From Nitrospira sp. (GTDB lineage Bacteria; Nitrospirota; Nitrospiria; Nitrospirales; Nitrospiraceae), in NCBI GenBank assembly GCA_021323395.1, contig JAJONL010000003.1:1-64000 (forward strand): DNA of 64,000 nucleotides, in the 5' to 3' direction. The notes under the pieces were generated by a model. It ran no database searches and had not been told where the DNA came from. It saw only the letters and a program-made list of their open reading frames with translations. Below, piece after piece: positions 4,717 through 15,917 of the stretch. The translations under genes were made by a program, and so were the position numbers. Position 1 is the first letter of the stretch, and each line of letters begins with the position of its first letter.

Positions 4717-6900
4717 CTAAGGCCGTTCTTGCCACGAGCGAACGCGTCGCACCGTGATGACGCCATCGACCTTTTCAATCGCCTTGAGAACTCGGCTGAC
4801 ATGCGCGGTATCCATGACTTCGACGATGAAGTCCAGCATCGCCTTTCGGTCCTCGCGCGTCGTAATTTCAGCGCGACTGATGTTGGCTTGGCACTCCGAA
4901 ATGGCCGTCGAGACATGCGCTAACACCCCCGTTTTGTCCACGGCGATGACGGATATTTTCACGGCATGAGTGCTGGGGGTAGAGTGGTCCCATTCCACCT
5001 CGACCAGCCGATTCTTATCATAATCCAACGCTTCCAAGTTGGGACAATCAACGGTATGGATGGTGAGTCCACGGCCCCGCGTGATGTATCCCAAAATGCG
5101 ATCGCCCGGCACAGGATTGCAGCAGCGCGACAACTGCATCAGCAAGTCCCGTGCGCCTTTGACCTGCACCCCTGCGTCATCCGGCCGACCGATTACCGAT
5201 TTCGGCACGGTCGGCGCTTCCGGCACGACCGCCAGGCTCGCTGTCGGTACCGCTGGAACCAGTTTACTCATCACTTGTGAAGTCGGTAGGTGCCCGAACC
5301 CGACAGCGGCTGCCAACTCCTCCGTGGTCTCGTGGCCGGCCTGCTTCGCCACGGCGAGAAGCTGATCCGAACGCATCATCTGAGCCGGCGCCAAACCGTG
5401 CCGGCGGAACTCCGCCTCCAACAACCGTTTTCCAATTTCGATGCTGCGGGTCTGTTCCTCCGCTTTGATCCAATGTTTGATCTTGGTTTTCGCCCGCGAA
5501 GTTCGCACGAACTTGAGCCAGTCGCGGTGAGGTGTTTGGTTGGCGGCGGTCAGAATCTCCACCATATCGCCGCTTTCCATCATATGTTTGAGCGGGACAA
5601 TCTTGCCGTTGACCTTGGCCCCTACGCAGTGGTCCCCGATCTCAGTATGCACGGAATAGGCAAAATCGACAGGCGTGGAACCCTTGGGAAGTTCCTTCAC
5701 CATACCTTGCGGGGTAAAGACGTAGACGACATCATGGAAGAGGTCCAGCTTGACCGAATCCATAAACTGGCGATTGTCCGGCAAATCTTGATTCCATTCG
5801 ACGAACTGTCGCAACCAACTGAACACCTTCCCGTCCTTCTCATCGATGCGGCCATGTTCCTTGTATTTCCAATGGGCGGCAATGCCCTGCTCCGACACCC
5901 GATGCATTTCCTCCGTGCGGATCTGAAATTCGACATGTTCTCCCTTAGGTCCCGCCACGGTGGTATGGAGCGACTGATAGAGATTTGATTTTGGAATGGC
6001 GATGTAATCCTTGAATCGGCCCGGCAGAGGCCGCCAAAGAGAATGAATCACGCCTAGGAGCGCATAGCAGTTCATTTTGATGTCGGTAATGATGCGCAGC
6101 GCTGCCAGGTCGTATACCTCCTCAAATGAAATGGACTGCTTCTCCATCTTCTGATAAATGCCATACAAATGCTTCGGCCGACCCGAAACCTCACCTTGTA
6201 ACCCTGCCTCCGCCATGGCCGCTTTCACCACATCAATGACTTCCAGAATATATTTCTGCCGGTCGTCGTCCCGCTTCGCCACGAGGACCCGTAAGGACTC
6301 GTACACGTCCGGCTTCAAATGTTTCAGACAGAGATCTTCCAGTTCGTTCTTAATCCAGCCGATCCCGAGTCGGTTGGCAAGCGGGGCATAGATTTCCAGC
6401 GTCTCTTGAGCGATTTCCTGCCGCTTGGGTTCACTGAGATATTCCAAGGTCCGCATATTGTGCAGCCGGTCCGCCAACTTGATCAACACAACGCGGATAT
6501 CGTCGGCCATCGACAGCAGCATCTTGCGAAAATTCTCCGCCTGCTTTTCTTCATAATTGCGGAAGGTGATCTTGCCGATCTTGGTGACGCCATCGACCAA
6601 ATGCACCACGTCCCTCCCAAACCGCTGCTCCAATTCCATGGGCGTGGCGAGGGTATCCTCCAGGGTGTCGTGCAGAAGGCCGGCAACAATGGCGGTCACG
6701 TCGGTCTTGAGATGTGTCAGCAACCCGGCCACCGCGAGAGGATGCCGGAGGTAGGGCTCGCCTGATCGCCGCGTCTGTCCCTCATGTGCCTTGGCGGAAA
6801 AATCATAGGCCCGGCGCACGAGGTCCAAATCGGCCTCGACGTTATAACTCTTCACCCGTTCGATCAATTGACCAAGATCTGTCACCGTCTCGTGCGGCAT
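4717..6900 (-). CDS. rsh: Bifunctional (p)ppGpp synthetase/hydrolase (RelA/SpoT, Rsh)
   Basis: HD domain (LRHPLAVAGLLTHLKTDVTAIVAGLLHDTLEDT), synthetase (KSNLYQSLHTTVAGPKGEHVEFQIRT), TGS and ACT regions. Confidence 0.97.
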   Translation of the reverse strand: MPHETVTDLGQLIERVKSYNVEADLDLVRRAYDFSAKAHEGQTRRSGEPYLRHPLAVAGLLTHLKTDVTAIVAGLLHDTLEDTLATPMELEQRFGRDVVHLVDGVTKIGKITFRNYEEKQAENFRKMLLSMADDIRVVLIKLADRLHNMRTLEYLSEPKRQEIAQETLEIYAPLANRLGIGWIKNELEDLCLKHLKPDVYESLRVLVAKRDDDRQKYILEVIDVVKAAMAEAGLQGEVSGRPKHLYGIYQKMEKQSISFEEVYDLAALRIITDIKMNCYALLGVIHSLWRPLPGRFKDYIAIPKSNLYQSLHTTVAGPKGEHVEFQIRTEEMHRVSEQGIAAHWKYKEHGRIDEKDGKVFSWLRQFVEWNQDLPDNRQFMDSVKLDLFHDVVYVFTPQGMVKELPKGSTPVDFAYSVHTEIGDHCVGAKVNGKIVPLKHMMESGDMVEILTAANQTPHRDWLKFVRTSRAKTKIKHWIKAEEQTRSIEIGKRLLEAEFRRHGLAPAQMMRSDQLLAVAKQAGHETTEELAAAVGFGHLPTSQVMSKLVPAVPTASLAVVPEAPTVPKSVIGRPDDAGVQVKGARDLLMQLSRCCNPVPGDRILGYITRGRGLTIHTVDCPNLEALDYDKNRLVEVEWDHSTPSTHAVKISVIAVDKTGVLAHVSTAISECQANISRAEITTREDRKAMLDFIVEVMDTAHVSRVLKAIEKVDGVITVRRVRSWQERP

Positions 6901-6902
6901 AC

Positions 6903-8609
6903 TTACGACACCTCACCGCTCATACGAAGAGCCTTGATACGCAGCTGAACCCGATCATAGCCATTCCAGTGGTTCCGCTCAGGACTGAACGCTAAATCGA
7001 CCGCTCGGCCGGACTGGAGACCTAGATCTCCCAACGGCCCCATACGGAAACCAATGCCGTCAAAAATGTAGGATCGGCCTTGTCGCACCCGCAGCTTGAG
7101 ATGCTTTTCGCCGACGACCCGCACGTCCACCACATCAAGGCCTCGCACCGCCAACGTGGGTTCCGGGTTGCCGGCCCCGAAGGGATGCAGCGACTCAAGT
7201 TCCTGAATCAAGCTGAAATTGACATCCGTGAGATTCACCTCGGCATCGACGTGCAACGTCGGCACAGTACGAACGGCTCCGGACCATCGGGCGGCCAGTG
7301 CGCAAAATCGGCGGCGAAATTCCTCTAAGCGCGATTCCTTGATGGTCAACCCCGCGGCGCTCGGATGACCGCCGTAGGCCTCCAGTAGATCCCGGCACTC
7401 GGACAATGCCTGATACAAATCGAACCCCTCCACCGTCCTGGCTGATCCTTTGCCGATCCCCTCCCCGTTCATTGCGATGACGATACTGGGGCGATGAAAG
7501 CGATCCACCAACCGGGCGGCAACAATCCCGACGACACCCAGATGCCAGTCGCGCGAACCCAGCACAATTGCGGCGCTCGGCTCGTTCTCCTGCAAACAGG
7601 CGCACGCCTCGCTGGTAATCCCTGCTTCGATTTGCTGGCGCTGTCGATTGAGCTGCTCCAGCTGCTCGGCAATCTGTACCGCCTCCTGCGCGGATTCCGT
7701 CGTCAAGAGTCGTACGCACGTCATGGCATGGTCCAACCGGCCCGCCGCATTCAAGCGAGGGCCAAGGCGAAAACCAACAGTTTCGCTCGTGCAGGCATTC
7801 GTAATGCCCGCTACTTGCTTCAGAGCACGAATACCGCAGCGGTCGCCACGCGTAATCTGCCTGAGTCCCTCTCGAACCAGGATGCGATTTTCATCCTGAA
7901 GCGGCACGATGTCGGCCACCGTCGCCAGGGCCACGAGATCCAGGCAAGAGGCCGGATCTACGGCACCGGACCCGTATCGCTGCTGATAGGCCGAGACCAC
8001 TTTATAGGCCAGTCCTGCCGAACATAGTCCCTTGAATGGATAAATCGCGTCACGCCGGTGTGGATTGAGCACTGCAAGTGCCGAAGGCATCGGGGCATCG
8101 GTCTGGTGATGGTCCGTCACCACCACATCGACGCCAAGCTGATTGGCAATGGTAATTTCATGATGGGAGGTGGTACCGCAATCGGACGTCACCAGCAAAG
8201 TAATGCCTTCCTGCGCTAAACGTCGAATCGCTCCTTCGTTCAAACCGTATCCTTCGGCAAGCCTATGCGGAATGTAGCCGCACGCATTCCCCCCCAGGCC
8301 TTGATAAAAGGACAGGTAAAGACTCGTAGCCGACACTCCATCGACATCATAATCCCCATAAAAACACACTCGCTCTTGCCGACAGAGGGCCAGGTGCAAC
8401 CGCTCCACGGCCCGGTCCATGTCGGGAATCAAGAAAGGATCGTGGAGTCGGTCTTGAGTGCTGCACATCCATCGACTCCCCTCGTCGGCAGTCGTCACGC
8501 CTCGGGCCAGCAATACGGAAGCCGTCACGGTCGAGATCGAGAGGAGACGTGACAAATTAGTCTGCAATGCGATATTCGACGGTCGGAACACCCACAGTCT
8601 TTCCTGCAT
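6903..8609 (-). CDS. recJ: Single-stranded-DNA-specific exonuclease RecJ
   Basis: CFYGDYDVDGVSATSLY, TSDCGTTSHHE, VVVTDHHQTD, HPSAAGLTI; start taken at MQERLWVF. Confidence 0.93.
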   Translation of the reverse strand: MQERLWVFRPSNIALQTNLSRLLSISTVTASVLLARGVTTADEGSRWMCSTQDRLHDPFLIPDMDRAVERLHLALCRQERVCFYGDYDVDGVSATSLYLSFYQGLGGNACGYIPHRLAEGYGLNEGAIRRLAQEGITLLVTSDCGTTSHHEITIANQLGVDVVVTDHHQTDAPMPSALAVLNPHRRDAIYPFKGLCSAGLAYKVVSAYQQRYGSGAVDPASCLDLVALATVADIVPLQDENRILVREGLRQITRGDRCGIRALKQVAGITNACTSETVGFRLGPRLNAAGRLDHAMTCVRLLTTESAQEAVQIAEQLEQLNRQRQQIEAGITSEACACLQENEPSAAIVLGSRDWHLGVVGIVAARLVDRFHRPSIVIAMNGEGIGKGSARTVEGFDLYQALSECRDLLEAYGGHPSAAGLTIKESRLEEFRRRFCALAARWSGAVRTVPTLHVDAEVNLTDVNFSLIQELESLHPFGAGNPEPTLAVRGLDVVDVRVVGEKHLKLRVRQGRSYIFDGIGFRMGPLGDLGLQSGRAVDLAFSPERNHWNGYDRVQLRIKALRMSGEVS

Positions 8610-8793
8610 GGATCCTCTATTTCTACGGGAAAATTCAGAAGTTACTGAGAAGTAAGGGGAATGGTATCGACTCACCCCATTTTTGTCAAACGGGTGATTA
8701 TTCAGAAAGCGAAACCGAGAACGTAGAGAGGCTGGGTACTGCTGCGGACGAAGGAGGGGCTGGACCCCGATAGGGCAGGAGCCAAAACGACCG

Positions 8794-8828
8794 CCAAAAG
8801 GGAAGGGTATTATTCCCCTCCCTTTTGG
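8794..8828 (-). terminator. Hairpin overlapping the 3' end of the Pup/UBact-like gene
   Basis: CCAAAAGGGAAGGG (8794-8807) vs CCCCTCCCTTTTGG (8815-8828), near-perfect inverted repeat that includes the last codons. Confidence 0.55.
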
Positions 8829-9007
8829 ACATAATTCTTCACGAACTCTTCGGCATTTTTTTCTAGCACATCGTCGATTTCATCGACCAGCTTGTCGATG
8901 TCCTCCTTCATTTTCTTGCCGGACTCGACGACTTTAGGATTCGGTTTGACCTCTTCCTTGTTATGGGATTCTTTCCTGGATTCCGGTCTCCTCTCCTGTT
9001 TCTCCAT
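8810..9007 (-). CDS. Prokaryotic ubiquitin-like protein (Pup/UBact type) ending QKGGE
   Basis: 65 aa, charged low-complexity N-terminus and C-terminus LVDEIDDVLEKNAEEFVKNYVQKGGE, matching the Pup C-terminal signature with terminal GGE. Confidence 0.9.
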   Translation of the reverse strand: MEKQERRPESRKESHNKEEVKPNPKVVESGKKMKEDIDKLVDEIDDVLEKNAEEFVKNYVQKGGE

Positions 9008-9119
9008 CGGAGCACCTCCAGTCAGTCAGACACCGCCATAGCCCACGCTCTCTCGTCACCTTACCCTAGGGCCGCCGAACGCGTCAAGCCGATGGTCTAG
9101 GAGCAGAATCGCCACCGGG

Positions 9120-11174
9120 CTATTTTACAATTAATGAGACGATGAGCAACGCCACGATATTGATGACCTTGATCATGGGGTTGATCGCTGGACCCGCCGT
9201 ATCCTTATAGGGATCGCCGACCGTATCGCCGGTGACCGCGGCCTTATGCGTCTCGGTTCCTTTCAAGCCCTGTTCCTCGATGTACTTCTTGGCATTGTCC
9301 CAGGCTCCCCCGCCGCTCGTCATGGAGATCGCAACGAACAAACCCGTGACAATGCTCCCCACAAGTACCCCTCCAAGCGCCTGAGGCCCAAGAACCACTC
9401 CGACCAGGATCGGAGCGACCACCGGAATCAGACCGGGAATCATCATTTTTTGAATCGCCGCTTGCGTGACGATATCCACGCAGGTTCCGTACTCCGGTTT
9501 CCCAGTCCCTTCCATGATGCCTTTGATCGTCCGGAATTGGCGTCGCACTTCTTCCACCACCAAGCCGGCCGCCTGCCCGACCGCTTTCATACAGAGCGCG
9601 CCAAAGATAAACGGCAACATTCCCCCAAGAAAGAGTCCGACCAGCACTAAGGGATTGGAGAGGTCGAAGGTGCTGGACTGAGTTCCCTTGGCCACTTCAC
9701 GCGCGAACTCTGCAAACAAGACCACCGCTGCGAGTCCTGCTGAACCAATCGCATATCCTTTCGTGACCGCCTTCGTCGTATTGCCGACCGCATCGAGCGG
9801 GTCCGTAATGTCACGCACTTCTTTCCCCAGGTGGGCCATCTCAGCGATCCCGCCGGCATTGTCCGTAATCGGGCCAAACGCATCGATGGCCACCACAATC
9901 CCCGCCATCGAGAGCATCGACACTGCCGCCACGGCCACACCGTACAAACCACCTGACTCCGCTCCACCGCAGATCCAGTAGCTACCGAGAATCGCCGCGC
10001 CGATGACGACCACCGGAGCGGACGTCGACTGCATGCCCACCGCCAGACCGGCAATGATGTTAGTCGCATGGCCCGTTTCACTGGCCTTGGCAATATCCTT
10101 CACCGGCGCATAACTCTTGGACGTGTAGTAGTCGGTGATGAACACCAGCGCGAGCGTCACCGCCAATCCCATCAATGCCGCCAGGTAATAGCTCATCCCG
10201 CTCACGCCACCGACGTTATCCATGATTTTGGTCGTGATCGGGAAAAAGGCCACGGCCGCAAGACCGCCGGCCACAAACAACCCCTTGTAGAGAGCCGGCA
10301 TAATTTCGCCGCCGGGACTGACCTTCACAAACAGAATACCGATGATCGTCGCGAAAATCGTCACTCCCCCCAGCGCAAGTGGGTAGAGAATGGGTGCACT
10401 GACACCTTTGAACATGGTGAAGGCCAGTACCATCGCCGCCACCGTCGTCACAGCATAGGTTTCGAAGAGGTCCGCTGCCATGCCGGCGCAATCGCCGACG
10501 TTGTCGCCCACGTTGTCGGCAATGACCGCTGGATTGCGTGGATCGTCTTCCGGAATGCCCGCCTCGACTTTGCCGACGAGATCCGCCCCTACGTCAGCGG
10601 CTTTCGTATAGATTCCGCCGCCCACGCGCGCAAACACCGAAATCAAACTCCCGCCGAAGCCGAGACTCAACAAGGCATGAATCGCTTTTTCCTGCCCCGC
10701 AAACTGAGAAGCCAAGGTGTAGAAGCTCGTAATGGCCAATAGGCCCAATCCGATCAATAACAAGCCCGTCACCGCGCCGCCGCGGAAGGCGACGGTCAAG
10801 GCGGCATTCATGCCGTTGTGCGCCGCCTGGGCCGTCCGTACATTCGCACGGACCGCGATGATCATCCCCACATAGCCGGCGAGGGCTGATGCTCCCGCTC
10901 CAATCAAAAATCCGATTGCCGTCAGCATCCCGAACTTATCTGAAAATGCCCCAGCCCCCCACAGCACGACGAACAGCACCGCCGCCACCACGCCCACCGT
11001 TCGATACTGTCGATTCATATAGGCGCCGGCGCCTTCTTGAATGGCCTTGGCAATTTCCTGCATCTTCGCATTACCGGCATTGAGCTTGAACACCCACATT
11101 GCGAGATAGAGGCCATAAGCAATGCCCGCCGCCGCCGCAATGAGAGCAAAGGTCACAATCGCTGAGTCACTCAC
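9120..11174 (-). CDS. hppA: Membrane-bound proton/sodium-translocating pyrophosphatase
   Basis: [71 protein letters not shown]. Confidence 0.97.
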
Positions 11175-11889: not shown

Positions 11890-13128
11890 CTACTTGGTGA
11901 CGGGAATGTTTTCGCTGAACTTCACGATTGGGATCGGTTGGAACACGGGATCCTGCGCTCCTTTAGAAGATTCCGCTTCGATGCGCTGCAGGAAAGAGGC
12001 CGGTCCGGCCACTGGGGCGTAGCTGAGGATGGCTTCGACGTCGAAGGTCTTGGTATCTTTGGGCGTGGGGAAAGTGAAGGTTTCCATTCGCTTTTCTTCA
12101 GGTTTCAAAACCGTTTCTTCGAGAACTTTGACCGCCTCAAAGTCGAACACCGTCTTCTGGCCTTTGGCATCGGCATAGGTCCGGCCGTAGACACGCTTGT
12201 CGTGAAACACGGTCTTGAGATTCTTCCCTTTGATATCCAGCTCCAGCACCACACTGGCCCAGCCTGGATGGGTGGTCGGTAGATTGTGCGGCACCAGACT
12301 TTGCACAGCCACGATCACGGTGGTCTTGTCACCGTCGACCTTCGTAGAGACTTCCAGCTTGGCGGCTTCCTGCCTGAGCTGACCGATCCGTCCTGGGAAC
12401 GTATGGTTGGCCACTTTCCGCTTGGCTTCTCCATTGGCCGATTCCCCGACCTGTTCCGGCATATGGCAGGTCTGGCATTCCTTCCCGGACTTCACGGCTT
12501 TACTCTGGTCCCAATTACCCAACAGATCGTTGCTCTTGCCGAGGTCTGCCGCAGCCGGGACGACCTGATGACAGTTCAAACAGAGATCCGACTTATGGAA
12601 GAGGCCCAACTCCATCGATTGGTGCGCGAGGTTCTGCGCAAAATCTTTGTACGGCCCATACATGGTCTTACTACCGAGGTCGTACTTCGGTTCAGGCGGT
12701 TGTTTCGCTCTGTCTACCTGCTTGATGAGATGACATTGGGCGCAAGCCACGCCGTCCAGAGAGGGCTCCCCGGACTGCGCTTGGGTCACAAACAACTGGG
12801 CCTGATCGGCAAACTCGCGCACGTGAGGAGCATGGCAACGGAAACAGAGGGCCTTATCTTTCCCCGCCGAAGAAGTCAGGTAGGCGTCGAGAGCGGCGCG
12901 GAAGGTGGGGGTGTGGATCGAGCGCGACAATGGCGAGGTTTCCCACTCTTCAAATACTCGCTCATGGCAGCGCTTACACTTGCTGGAATTGGGAAAGGCT
13001 TTCTCGATGGTGGCTTGGGCTTTCGCATCTTGCGCGAGTCCCTGCTGCACGCCATAGCTGGTGAGGATGACGGCCAGTAATATTGCGCTTAGGATGATTC
13101 CTTGCAGGAATTGTCGTCGATGCTTCAC
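11890..13128 (-). CDS. Periplasmic pentaheme c-type cytochrome
   Basis: Five CxxCH motifs: CKRCH, CFRCH, CAQCH, CLNCH, CQTCH; N-terminal signal anchor. Confidence 0.9.
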   Translation of the reverse strand: MKHRRQFLQGIILSAILLAVILTSYGVQQGLAQDAKAQATIEKAFPNSSKCKRCHERVFEEWETSPLSRSIHTPTFRAALDAYLTSSAGKDKALCFRCHAPHVREFADQAQLFVTQAQSGEPSLDGVACAQCHLIKQVDRAKQPPEPKYDLGSKTMYGPYKDFAQNLAHQSMELGLFHKSDLCLNCHQVVPAAADLGKSNDLLGNWDQSKAVKSGKECQTCHMPEQVGESANGEAKRKVANHTFPGRIGQLRQEAAKLEVSTKVDGDKTTVIVAVQSLVPHNLPTTHPGWASVVLELDIKGKNLKTVFHDKRVYGRTYADAKGQKTVFDFEAVKVLEETVLKPEEKRMETFTFPTPKDTKTFDVEAILSYAPVAGPASFLQRIEAESSKGAQDPVFQPIPIVKFSENIPVTK

Positions 13129-13190
13129 CGTTGGCGTTTCCTCCGCACATTGTGCGTCCTTCGGTACCGCTTTATCACCAGCACGGCACC

Positions 13191-14513
13191 TCAGAATGAC
13201 TTGGCCCTGTACGTCAGCAGACGAGGCTGAATGTATTCTTCGATCACTTTTTTTGCGACGGCACGTTCCTGATCGTTCGCCAAGGATGCAAGGTATTTGG
13301 CTTTGAGCGCCGCCTCCGGCTCGGGGATCAAGGTATAGCTCAACACCACTTCGATATGTGCCGGTTCTTCTCCCGACTTGATGCTTTGGGAAAACGGCAC
13401 GCGGCGTGTTGTGCCCCCTTTGATGAAGGGGTCGGGAATTGGCCCGCGTAGAATCTTCTCAAAGGGCAGGCCGAACCGTTTCGTCTCCTCAGCCAGCATG
13501 TTGCCCCGCGCGTCCTTGATCGCGATGGAGAGCAGGAATTGTTTCAAGACCGGATCGCCGTCCGGAAAACTATGGGGCAGACTACCGATCTTCACGAGCA
13601 CCGTGCCTTCTACTCCAGCCACAGACTTCGTGGCCTCCACCTCGATTCTCGGCATCCACTCCGCCTGCAGATTGCGGTTTTTCAACAAGGTGCCTGGGAT
13701 GACGACGCCGCGAAACCAATGCCGGCCGATTGCCCTGGTCATTGCGCCGCGTTTCGATGTCGAGCTACCGGTGGATGGTTCCATATGGCAGTCTTGGCAA
13801 ATGGTGCCTTGCAGGATTTCGCCGGGCAAATCCTTCTGCGTGACGTCCTTTACCTTGTCAAAGTGGCAGGAAGTGCAGAAGTTCGCCCCGCGGAAGAGCG
13901 ACGTCTGTGTCGCAGGATGCACCAAGTTCTCTTCCGGATCGGCATAGGGTCCGTAGAGCATTTCCCCCGGTTGCACTTTGTAAGTAGGCGGCGGTTGCGG
14001 GGTGGATTCCACCGCATTGATGAGATGACAGGAAGCACAACCGATTCCCTCCACTTGCGGCTTACCGGACAATACCTGTGCCGTGATCTTGTCGGCGTGC
14101 TGCGGAAAGACTGTCACAGCCGGGGCATGGCAAGAGAGACAACGCTGTCGTTCCTGCATCGTGGGATTCGTCTGCATCCAGAGTCCCAACACGGTTCGGA
14201 AAACCGGCGACTCGAAAGAGGCGCCGTGCAGCAAGGCGGCGTCGACACGACCGAAGGACTTCAGATCCGGCGTCTGCTCGCGTATGCCCTTCCATTCCTC
14301 ATAATGTCGATCATGGCACTGCTTACAATCCTCCGACCGAATAAAAATCTTCTCAATTTCTGCGACCCAGTCAGCCGTCCCTTGTCCATCAGTCTTCTGC
14401 GCAATCGCGCGCTCATGGAAGGTGATGTTCAACATCGCCATGAGCAACAGAAGTCCCCCAGCCACCAGCTTCTGCACCAATCGCCGCTTGTCGTCCACGC
14501 TCTGCCTACCCAC
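13191..14513 (-). CDS. Pentaheme c-type cytochrome, paralogue of the preceding one
   Basis: Five CxxCH motifs: CKQCH, CLSCH, CASCH, CTSCH, CQDCH in the same order and similar context (CASCHLIN vs CAQCHLIK). Confidence 0.9.
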   Translation of the reverse strand: MGRQSVDDKRRLVQKLVAGGLLLLMAMLNITFHERAIAQKTDGQGTADWVAEIEKIFIRSEDCKQCHDRHYEEWKGIREQTPDLKSFGRVDAALLHGASFESPVFRTVLGLWMQTNPTMQERQRCLSCHAPAVTVFPQHADKITAQVLSGKPQVEGIGCASCHLINAVESTPQPPPTYKVQPGEMLYGPYADPEENLVHPATQTSLFRGANFCTSCHFDKVKDVTQKDLPGEILQGTICQDCHMEPSTGSSTSKRGAMTRAIGRHWFRGVVIPGTLLKNRNLQAEWMPRIEVEATKSVAGVEGTVLVKIGSLPHSFPDGDPVLKQFLLSIAIKDARGNMLAEETKRFGLPFEKILRGPIPDPFIKGGTTRRVPFSQSIKSGEEPAHIEVVLSYTLIPEPEAALKAKYLASLANDQERAVAKKVIEEYIQPRLLTYRAKSF

Positions 14514-15001
14514 TAGTCTCGTTTACAGCCGACAAAATGAAAATTCACGCCCCACCCGACTGGATCGCCAGGATCTGCCGGCTCATAGGTTCCCACGGTG
14601 AAATTACATTCTTTAAGTGAAGCCTTCACGGCTTTCCCAAAATCGATGAGGGTGCGGACTTCCTTCTTATCGATTTCCTTGATGACCGAACGCACCTTGA
14701 TGCCGGCATAGTCTGCGCGAGAATTGCCGATGACCTCAAACACAGCCACCCCCTCAGGACGCTGTAACTTCAGCTCTTTTTGAATCTCTTCGTCAACCTC
14801 GCCGACGGCGATTCCAAATTCTTCGCCGAGCTGAATGGCTTCTTCCGCCGTCATCTCCCCATTGGAAGCCGTTCCTGTATCTGCACCGTTCGCGCTGCTC
14901 CACTCTGCCGCGATGAGCAGAACCCCACACACAGAAAAAGCCCTTCCGAGAGAAAGGGCTTTTTTCAGGATCGACCGGCTCTTCTGAGAGCTCTCCTCCA
15001 A
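14513..15001 (-). CDS. PDZ-domain-like periplasmic protein
   Basis: LQRPEGVAVFEVIGNSRADYAGIKVRSVIKEIDKKEVRTLIDFGKAV resembles a PDZ fold core. Confidence 0.65.
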   Translation of the reverse strand: MEESSQKSRSILKKALSLGRAFSVCGVLLIAAEWSSANGADTGTASNGEMTAEEAIQLGEEFGIAVGEVDEEIQKELKLQRPEGVAVFEVIGNSRADYAGIKVRSVIKEIDKKEVRTLIDFGKAVKASLKECNFTVGTYEPADPGDPVGWGVNFHFVGCKRD

Positions 15002-15074
15002 CGTAGTTGCCTCATTGACGCGACAGGCACCGACTCAGACGGGGTCGGCCGTTCTGTTATCCTAACAGGAACAC

Positions 15075-15917
15075 TTACGTTTTTGTGATGGGATCCAGCG
15101 AGAGCTGAAACCAAGGAGCGATGGCTTTCTGACCATTGCGTTCCTTGTTCTCGCCGTTCCACACGGCAAAGGATACCGCCTGGATATGCCCCGGAATCAA
15201 CTTGGCCTCGTTTTCTTGTTCTTCAATGGACAAAGGTCGACGCATCACCACTCGCCACATGCCGTCTTTCCAGGTGGCCTTCCCCTGCACACGCCCTTGC
15301 TTTTCTTTGGTAGTGAGGGTACTGAATCCCCCACCGATCAAATCTTCGACCGAAGAAGCTCGGCGCGGAATAACTTCAAAGCGCCGCGGCTCACCGCTGA
15401 CAGCCTTGTCTTTTTCCGTCGGTCTGACAGCTCGCCGATCGATATCGCTCTGCCAATCGGCTTTCCAGTGCCAAATGTTGATGTAGTGATCCAACTGGCC
15501 CATGCAGAAAAAGGCCGGCGCATCCCCAAGCGGCAAACCTAGCGCCACCCCGTCGCGGAAGGTGCCCGGCGTGAGTCGATCGTTTTTCGTATTGTCCTGC
15601 CACTCAAGCAAAAACGCGATGTCTGCGCCGTTATGCACCGCGCGAACCGCCAAGGCATGGGCCGTCGGCTCGGGCCAGACAGGGCGAGTAATGATCTGCC
15701 CGCTCAGAGGCAAGGTCATCGGAGGTATTTTCTGCCACAGCGGGTCCTCAGGCGTGACGGGAATGTCTCCCGTGACGGCCTGTGCACGGATAATCATGCC
15801 TTCCGAACTGACGATGGGAATACCGAGACCGCCGAGAGCGACGGCGAAAAGGAGGAGACCCGAGAGACCATACAGCAGCTTGGTGCGGGATGTGTGGACC
15901 GATGTCATTCGCCTCAT
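15075..15917 (-). CDS. Ethylbenzene dehydrogenase-related (EBDH gamma / NxrC-like) heme-binding protein
   Basis: DPLWQKIPPMTLPLSGQIITRPVWPEPTAHALAVRAVHNGADIAFLLEWQDNTKND...ALGLPLGDAPAFFCMGQLDHYINIWHWKADWQ...VSFAVWNGENKERNGQKAIAPWFQLSL. Confidence 0.85.
   Translation of the reverse strand: MRRMTSVHTSRTKLLYGLSGLLLFAVALGGLGIPIVSSEGMIIRAQAVTGDIPVTPEDPLWQKIPPMTLPLSGQIITRPVWPEPTAHALAVRAVHNGADIAFLLEWQDNTKNDRLTPGTFRDGVALGLPLGDAPAFFCMGQLDHYINIWHWKADWQSDIDRRAVRPTEKDKAVSGEPRRFEVIPRRASSVEDLIGGGFSTLTTKEKQGRVQGKATWKDGMWRVVMRRPLSIEEQENEAKLIPGHIQAVSFAVWNGENKERNGQKAIAPWFQLSLDPITKT

Follow-up and report, generated by a model that had tools for sequence, protein, structure and literature searches.

Nitrospirales genomes encode a prokaryotic ubiquitin-like protein (Pup) at a site between hppA and recJ, well away from the genes for the enzymes and proteasome with which it would act. 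We describe this arrangement for a Nitrospira genome in which pup lies within a 64,000-nucleotide stretch, referred to here in its entirety as the window, and in which the gene almost certainly supplies the functional tag of a Pup-proteasome system encoded on a different contig, C140. This separation is a long-standing feature of Nitrospirales and is not specific to this genome. Nitrospira are important nitrifiers, and to our knowledge their protein turnover has been little studied.

A pup gene between hppA and recJ

The initial annotation reported a 65-aa open reading frame ending in GGE at 8810-9007, and it lies exactly there, on the minus strand between recJ and hppA (Table 1). Its translation is MEKQERRPESRKESHNKEEVKPNPKVVESGKKMKEDIDKLVDEIDDVLEKNAEEFVKNYVQKGGE, followed by a stop codon. 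The protein matches the Pfam Pup model PF05639 (E=3e-21; 76.6 bits against a cut-off of 27) and the NCBIfam model TIGR03687, pupylate_cterm (62 bits; cut-off 41.45), and the match is not due to chance. Its last 38 residues align with Mycobacterium tuberculosis Pup in the PDB entries 3m91, 3m9d and 7px9, and its length and KGGE terminus agree with the approximately 60-70 residues and GG[EQ] end by which Pup is recognised; free Pup is disordered. A genome-wide search returned no second Pup above the cut-off, leaving the window gene as the sole match. The initial annotation had described the product as of Pup or UBact type, and only the former part stands; identification as UBact was rejected because UBact is a separate gene on contig C99, and neither PF20513 nor NF033388 is among the models that the window protein matches. 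Comparison of the last 38 codons with those of a relative, G208, reveals 19 silent and no replacement differences, other relatives being alike, and on this codon evidence pup is under strong purifying selection.

Table 1. Features at the pup locus of the window.
Feature	Position	Strand	Evidence and remarks
relA/spoT family gene	4717-6900	minus	TIGR00691, 790.4 bits (cut-off 499.2); synteny; directly behind recJ
recJ	6903-8675	minus	TIGR00644, 532.5 bits (cut-off 396.9); synteny; downstream of pup
14-bp terminator-like hairpin	8794-8828	minus	QKGGE codons at the pup 3' end make up the 5' arm; loop contains the stop codon
pup, encoding a 65-aa Pup with a KGGE terminus	8810-9007	minus	PF05639; TIGR03687; PDB Pup; purifying selection
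Ribosome-binding-site-like GGAGGTG	9013-9019	minus	5 nt before the pup ATG; read from the sequence
hppA, membrane-bound ion-pumping pyrophosphatase	9120-11174	minus	NF001951, 1019.8 bits (cut-off 859); synteny; upstream of pup

The gap between recJ and spoT in the window is 2 nt. The hairpin at the end of pup was considered as a conserved regulatory element and dropped; it is strong in the window, yet only 13 of the 40 pup 3' ends examined in relatives fold better than shuffled sequences at p<0.05, and its occurrence is patchy. Upstream of hppA, the genes at 11890-15917 have below-cut-off matches to multihaem cytochrome (ExtKL) models and to a model for the haem-b subunit of type II DMSO reductase, and they are kept near hppA in relatives.

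A pup-less proteasome cluster and a UBact cluster in the same genome

The genome assembly to which the window belongs comprises 3.5 Mb in 234 contigs and is 99.7% complete. The initial annotation held that the tag is separated from its machinery, a reading that it tied to the presence of a PafA-like ligase somewhere in the genome, and both points are borne out: a genome-wide search identifies four genes of the PafA/Dop family, all on contigs other than that of the window, and the pafA, dop, mpa and prcAB genes for which it suggested looking are all present on C140 (L005), in the order mpa-dop-prcB-prcA-pafA and in one direction. There is no pup within this cluster, in which dop and prcB abut. 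The term orphan, which the initial annotation also used, is apt for the 64-kb window but misleading for the genome, because this full pup-less cluster exists.

The C140 products exceed their respective NCBIfam equivalog cut-offs, with 571.8 bits for PafA (cut-off 551.3), 557.7 bits for Dop (492.3) and 741.1 bits for Mpa (504.75); PrcA and PrcB are likewise both above theirs. PafA aligns over its length to the Corynebacterium glutamicum ligase (PDB 4b0t) and retains the active-site Asp, which is D in 4b0t and N in the 4bjr construct, while the C-terminus of Mpa is GHYL, a proteasome-docking tail.

A second cluster, on C99 (L006), contains the end of an ATPase gene, a Dop-like gene, UBact, prcB, prcA and a PafA-like gene. 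The UBact protein matches PF20513 with 77.2 bits and ends in QRTGE, and its gene sits between dop and prcB; the ATPase gene is interrupted by the contig end, its front part being probably on C147. We note that the UBact-system ATPase (L006, 14684-15082; also L194-L208) ends in NQII or a similar sequence, and lacks the GHYL or aromatic proteasome-docking tail. UBact is by its sequence a different tag from Pup, in the same cell. The C99 enzymes fall below the Pup-specific equivalog cut-offs and the C140 cluster exceeds them and has no pup; the window Pup therefore most probably belongs with C140.

Position of pup in Nitrospirales and related lineages

Among relatives that carry a name, the nearest to the window's genome are Nitrospira. 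In the Nitrospirales families f1 to f4, hppA lies upstream of pup, and recJ and then spoT lie downstream, all on the same strand. The hppA-pup-recJ order is found at 52 of the 80 named public loci, with one of these partners or spoT present at 15 more, and Nitrospirales pup in general stands beside recJ and/or spoT with hppA usually there too; the complete genome of N. moscoviensis has pup at the same hppA-recJ site. There are departures: in G253 and G229 no recJ was found in the interval from pup to spoT, and in some genomes of family f2 hppA was not found beside pup. Among single-contig genomes of the family and of the order Nitrospirales, the distance from pup to the Pup-type dop ranges from 43 kb to 1.4 Mb.

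The dop-pup-prcB adjacency typical of PafA-family loci is thus absent from the window, although it is the usual gene order and not a defining property of Pup. Outside Nitrospirales, pup in Nitrospirota is mostly between dop and prcB (L089-L095, L183, L188, L190-L192 and L213), and it has the same position in two MAGs, one from Troglogloeales (L179) and one deltaproteobacterial (L193); the outgroups L089-L095 and L213 combine this position with enzymes of the same type as those of C140. In a tree in which Dop-like and PafA-like genes are intermixed among the UBact-side rows, and whose branching we interpret on the Pup side only, the Pup-type PafA of Nitrospirales forms one group (support 97), as does the Pup-type Dop (support 94), each nested among pup-linked lineages. 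The simplest reading of these sequences is a single relocation of pup in the common ancestor of the sampled Nitrospirales, with no second copy left behind. In two Methylomirabilota MAGs (L184, 9470-10195; L187, 3048-3767) pup lies directly behind a gene with a MoCF_biosynth domain and does not adjoin dop, with mpa-dop approximately 5.5 kb beyond pup in L187; this site is possibly a second, independent relocation.

Paired occurrence and loss of tags and enzymes

A census of 396 Nitrospirota genomes, whose counts share ancestry and so are not independent, shows that tags and enzymes occur together. Both tags are encoded in 127 genomes, and 121 of these have exactly four PafA/Dop genes; Pup alone is present in 59 (two PafA/Dop genes in 45) and UBact alone in nine (two in six), while 198 of the 201 genomes with neither tag have none. 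Every one of the 186 genomes with pup has a PafA/Dop match.

Two genomes, each a single case and each a draft assembly, appear to have lost tag and enzymes together. In the UBact-only genome G317, hppA and recJ are both present and pup is gone, the spacer between them being 275 nt as against at least 321 nt in the pup-containing relatives measured; Pup-type dop, pafA and mpa were not found, just UBact-type dop, pafA and ATPase genes. The recJ match in this genome (L110, 1501-3246) contains an internal TAG and an internal TAA. At the hppA-recJ site of G357 is a decayed pup that lacks a start and ends in QQGRG; intact copies of dop and pafA, and a Pup-type Mpa ATPase, were not found in this genome. 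We considered, and rejected, similar losses of pup in G179, G373, G377 and G263; its absence there is probably an assembly gap, because recJ is also missing or truncated. The converse is seen in G333 and G206, which keep pup and in whose draft assemblies the Pup-type cluster was not found; they may reflect assembly loss or be true orphans. The pup of G333 is intact (L103, 9867-10064), and its draft, in which Pup-type dop, pafA and mpa were not found, is listed as 99% complete.

A model for the system and its alternatives

In characterised systems PafA links Pup through its terminal Glu to lysines, Dop undoes this attachment, and Mpa passes tagged substrates on to the 20S proteasome (PMC3511204, PMC8223512); in C. 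glutamicum, where Pup ends in Glu, Dop is needed just for removal (PMC3511204). By analogy with these relatives, Pup in this Nitrospira would be supplied from the hppA-recJ-spoT locus, and the C140 PafA would join the side-chain carboxylate of its terminal Glu to target lysines. Deamidation would not be needed, because the protein terminates in Glu, so that removal of Pup would be the sole role required of the C140 Dop; Mpa, with its GHYL end, would feed tagged proteins into the PrcAB proteasome encoded beside it. The ancestral pup is predicted to have lain between dop and prcB and to have moved once to the hppA-recJ site before the sampled Nitrospirales families split, the machinery staying behind. 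The UBact system, which has a Dop-like and a PafA-like enzyme, an ATPase and a PrcAB proteasome to itself, would run beside the Pup system, and we infer that the two do not exchange tags. We place the probability of this whole account, with a working Pup, its partners on C140, one ancestral move of pup and a UBact system alongside, at roughly 90%.

A different pairing, in which the relocated Pup is served by the UBact-type enzymes of C99, shared or swapped, and the C140 cluster does something else, might be entertained given the homology of the two enzyme sets and their presence in one cell. However, UBact lies within its own cluster at every UBact locus that we have read, Pup-only genomes retain the Pup-type enzymes, G317 retains the UBact-type enzymes while having lost pup, and outside Nitrospirales it is with Pup-type enzymes that Pup is linked; we therefore consider this pairing very unlikely. 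It is still harder to see pup as a vestige, left over without a ligase and out of use. The ligase-free 64-kb window and the G333 and G206 drafts are what such a vestige would predict, but for the genome of the window this is refuted by the complete Pup-type cluster on C140, and the predominance of silent changes in pup and the PafA/Dop match in all of the pup-bearing genomes argue against it generally, so that little weight can be given to it. That the separation might be produced by fragmentation or chimaerism of the draft is suggested only by the 234 contigs of this assembly, and it is already refuted by single-contig genomes with the hppA-pup-recJ order and pup 43 kb or more from dop, as well as by the site in the complete N. 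moscoviensis genome; we regard its probability as negligible.

A further proposal adds to the preferred account of a relocated, working Pup, and does not replace it: the move may have been selected, tying supply of the tag to recJ and spoT, and hence to DNA repair and starvation, such that the level of Pup switches pupylation. Of the two tag systems that the cell would run at once, the Pup branch would then be controlled through the hppA-recJ-spoT locus and not through expression of the enzymes. Retention of the site on the same strand in four Nitrospirales families, and the near-contact of recJ and spoT in the window, are consistent with this, but in the window a terminator-like hairpin stands between pup and recJ, recJ was not found beside pup in some f2 genomes nor hppA in others, and neutral retention can also last long; we thus offer the coupling tentatively, as a minority possibility.

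Comparison with known pupylation systems

A 2012 review describes the gene order as rigidly conserved in all pupylation-competent organisms (PMC3511204), and pup has also been stated in print to be 'invariably adjacent'; the Nitrospirales relocation departs from both statements. In the literature searched, which did not include the 2017 UBact paper, we found no earlier report of an order-wide departure of pup. What is added here is a clean, order-wide relocation of a tag gene in a natural two-tag setting, and the chemistry is not new. A practical consequence is that searches of the neighbourhoods of pafA and dop would miss the Pup of Nitrospirales, or lead to the view that UBact is the sole tag. 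Because two homologous systems coexist, and sister genomes hold only one, a direct test of tag-enzyme specificity is possible.

With the actinobacterial Pup-proteasome systems, as in M. tuberculosis and in C. glutamicum with its PafA, the Nitrospira system shares the C-terminal half of Pup, PafA, Dop, PrcA and PrcB, and an Mpa with a penultimate Tyr at its C-terminus. It differs from them in that pup lies between hppA and recJ and not between dop and prcB, and its Pup ends in GGE like that of C. glutamicum, in contrast to GGQ in mycobacteria. The UBact system (Lehmann et al. 2017, BBRC, as cited in PMC5751360) is the one represented on C99, with UBact between dop and prcB; UBact (PF20513) and the window Pup (PF05639) are different proteins, and the NQII-ending ATPase of the former system lacks the GHYL tail of Mpa. 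That a single Nitrospirota genome can hold two systems is already known from Leptospirillum ferrooxidans, which has two complete copies (L1 and L2), the second with a Pup that lacks GGE (PMC3511204). G028 (family f22) also has both tags, with pup still inside its cluster. The window's genome and L. ferrooxidans thus have in common two complete sets of tag, enzymes and proteasome, the second tag in each lacking the GGE end, but both L. ferrooxidans sets are described with the same gene context, whereas the Nitrospirales pup has left its cluster.
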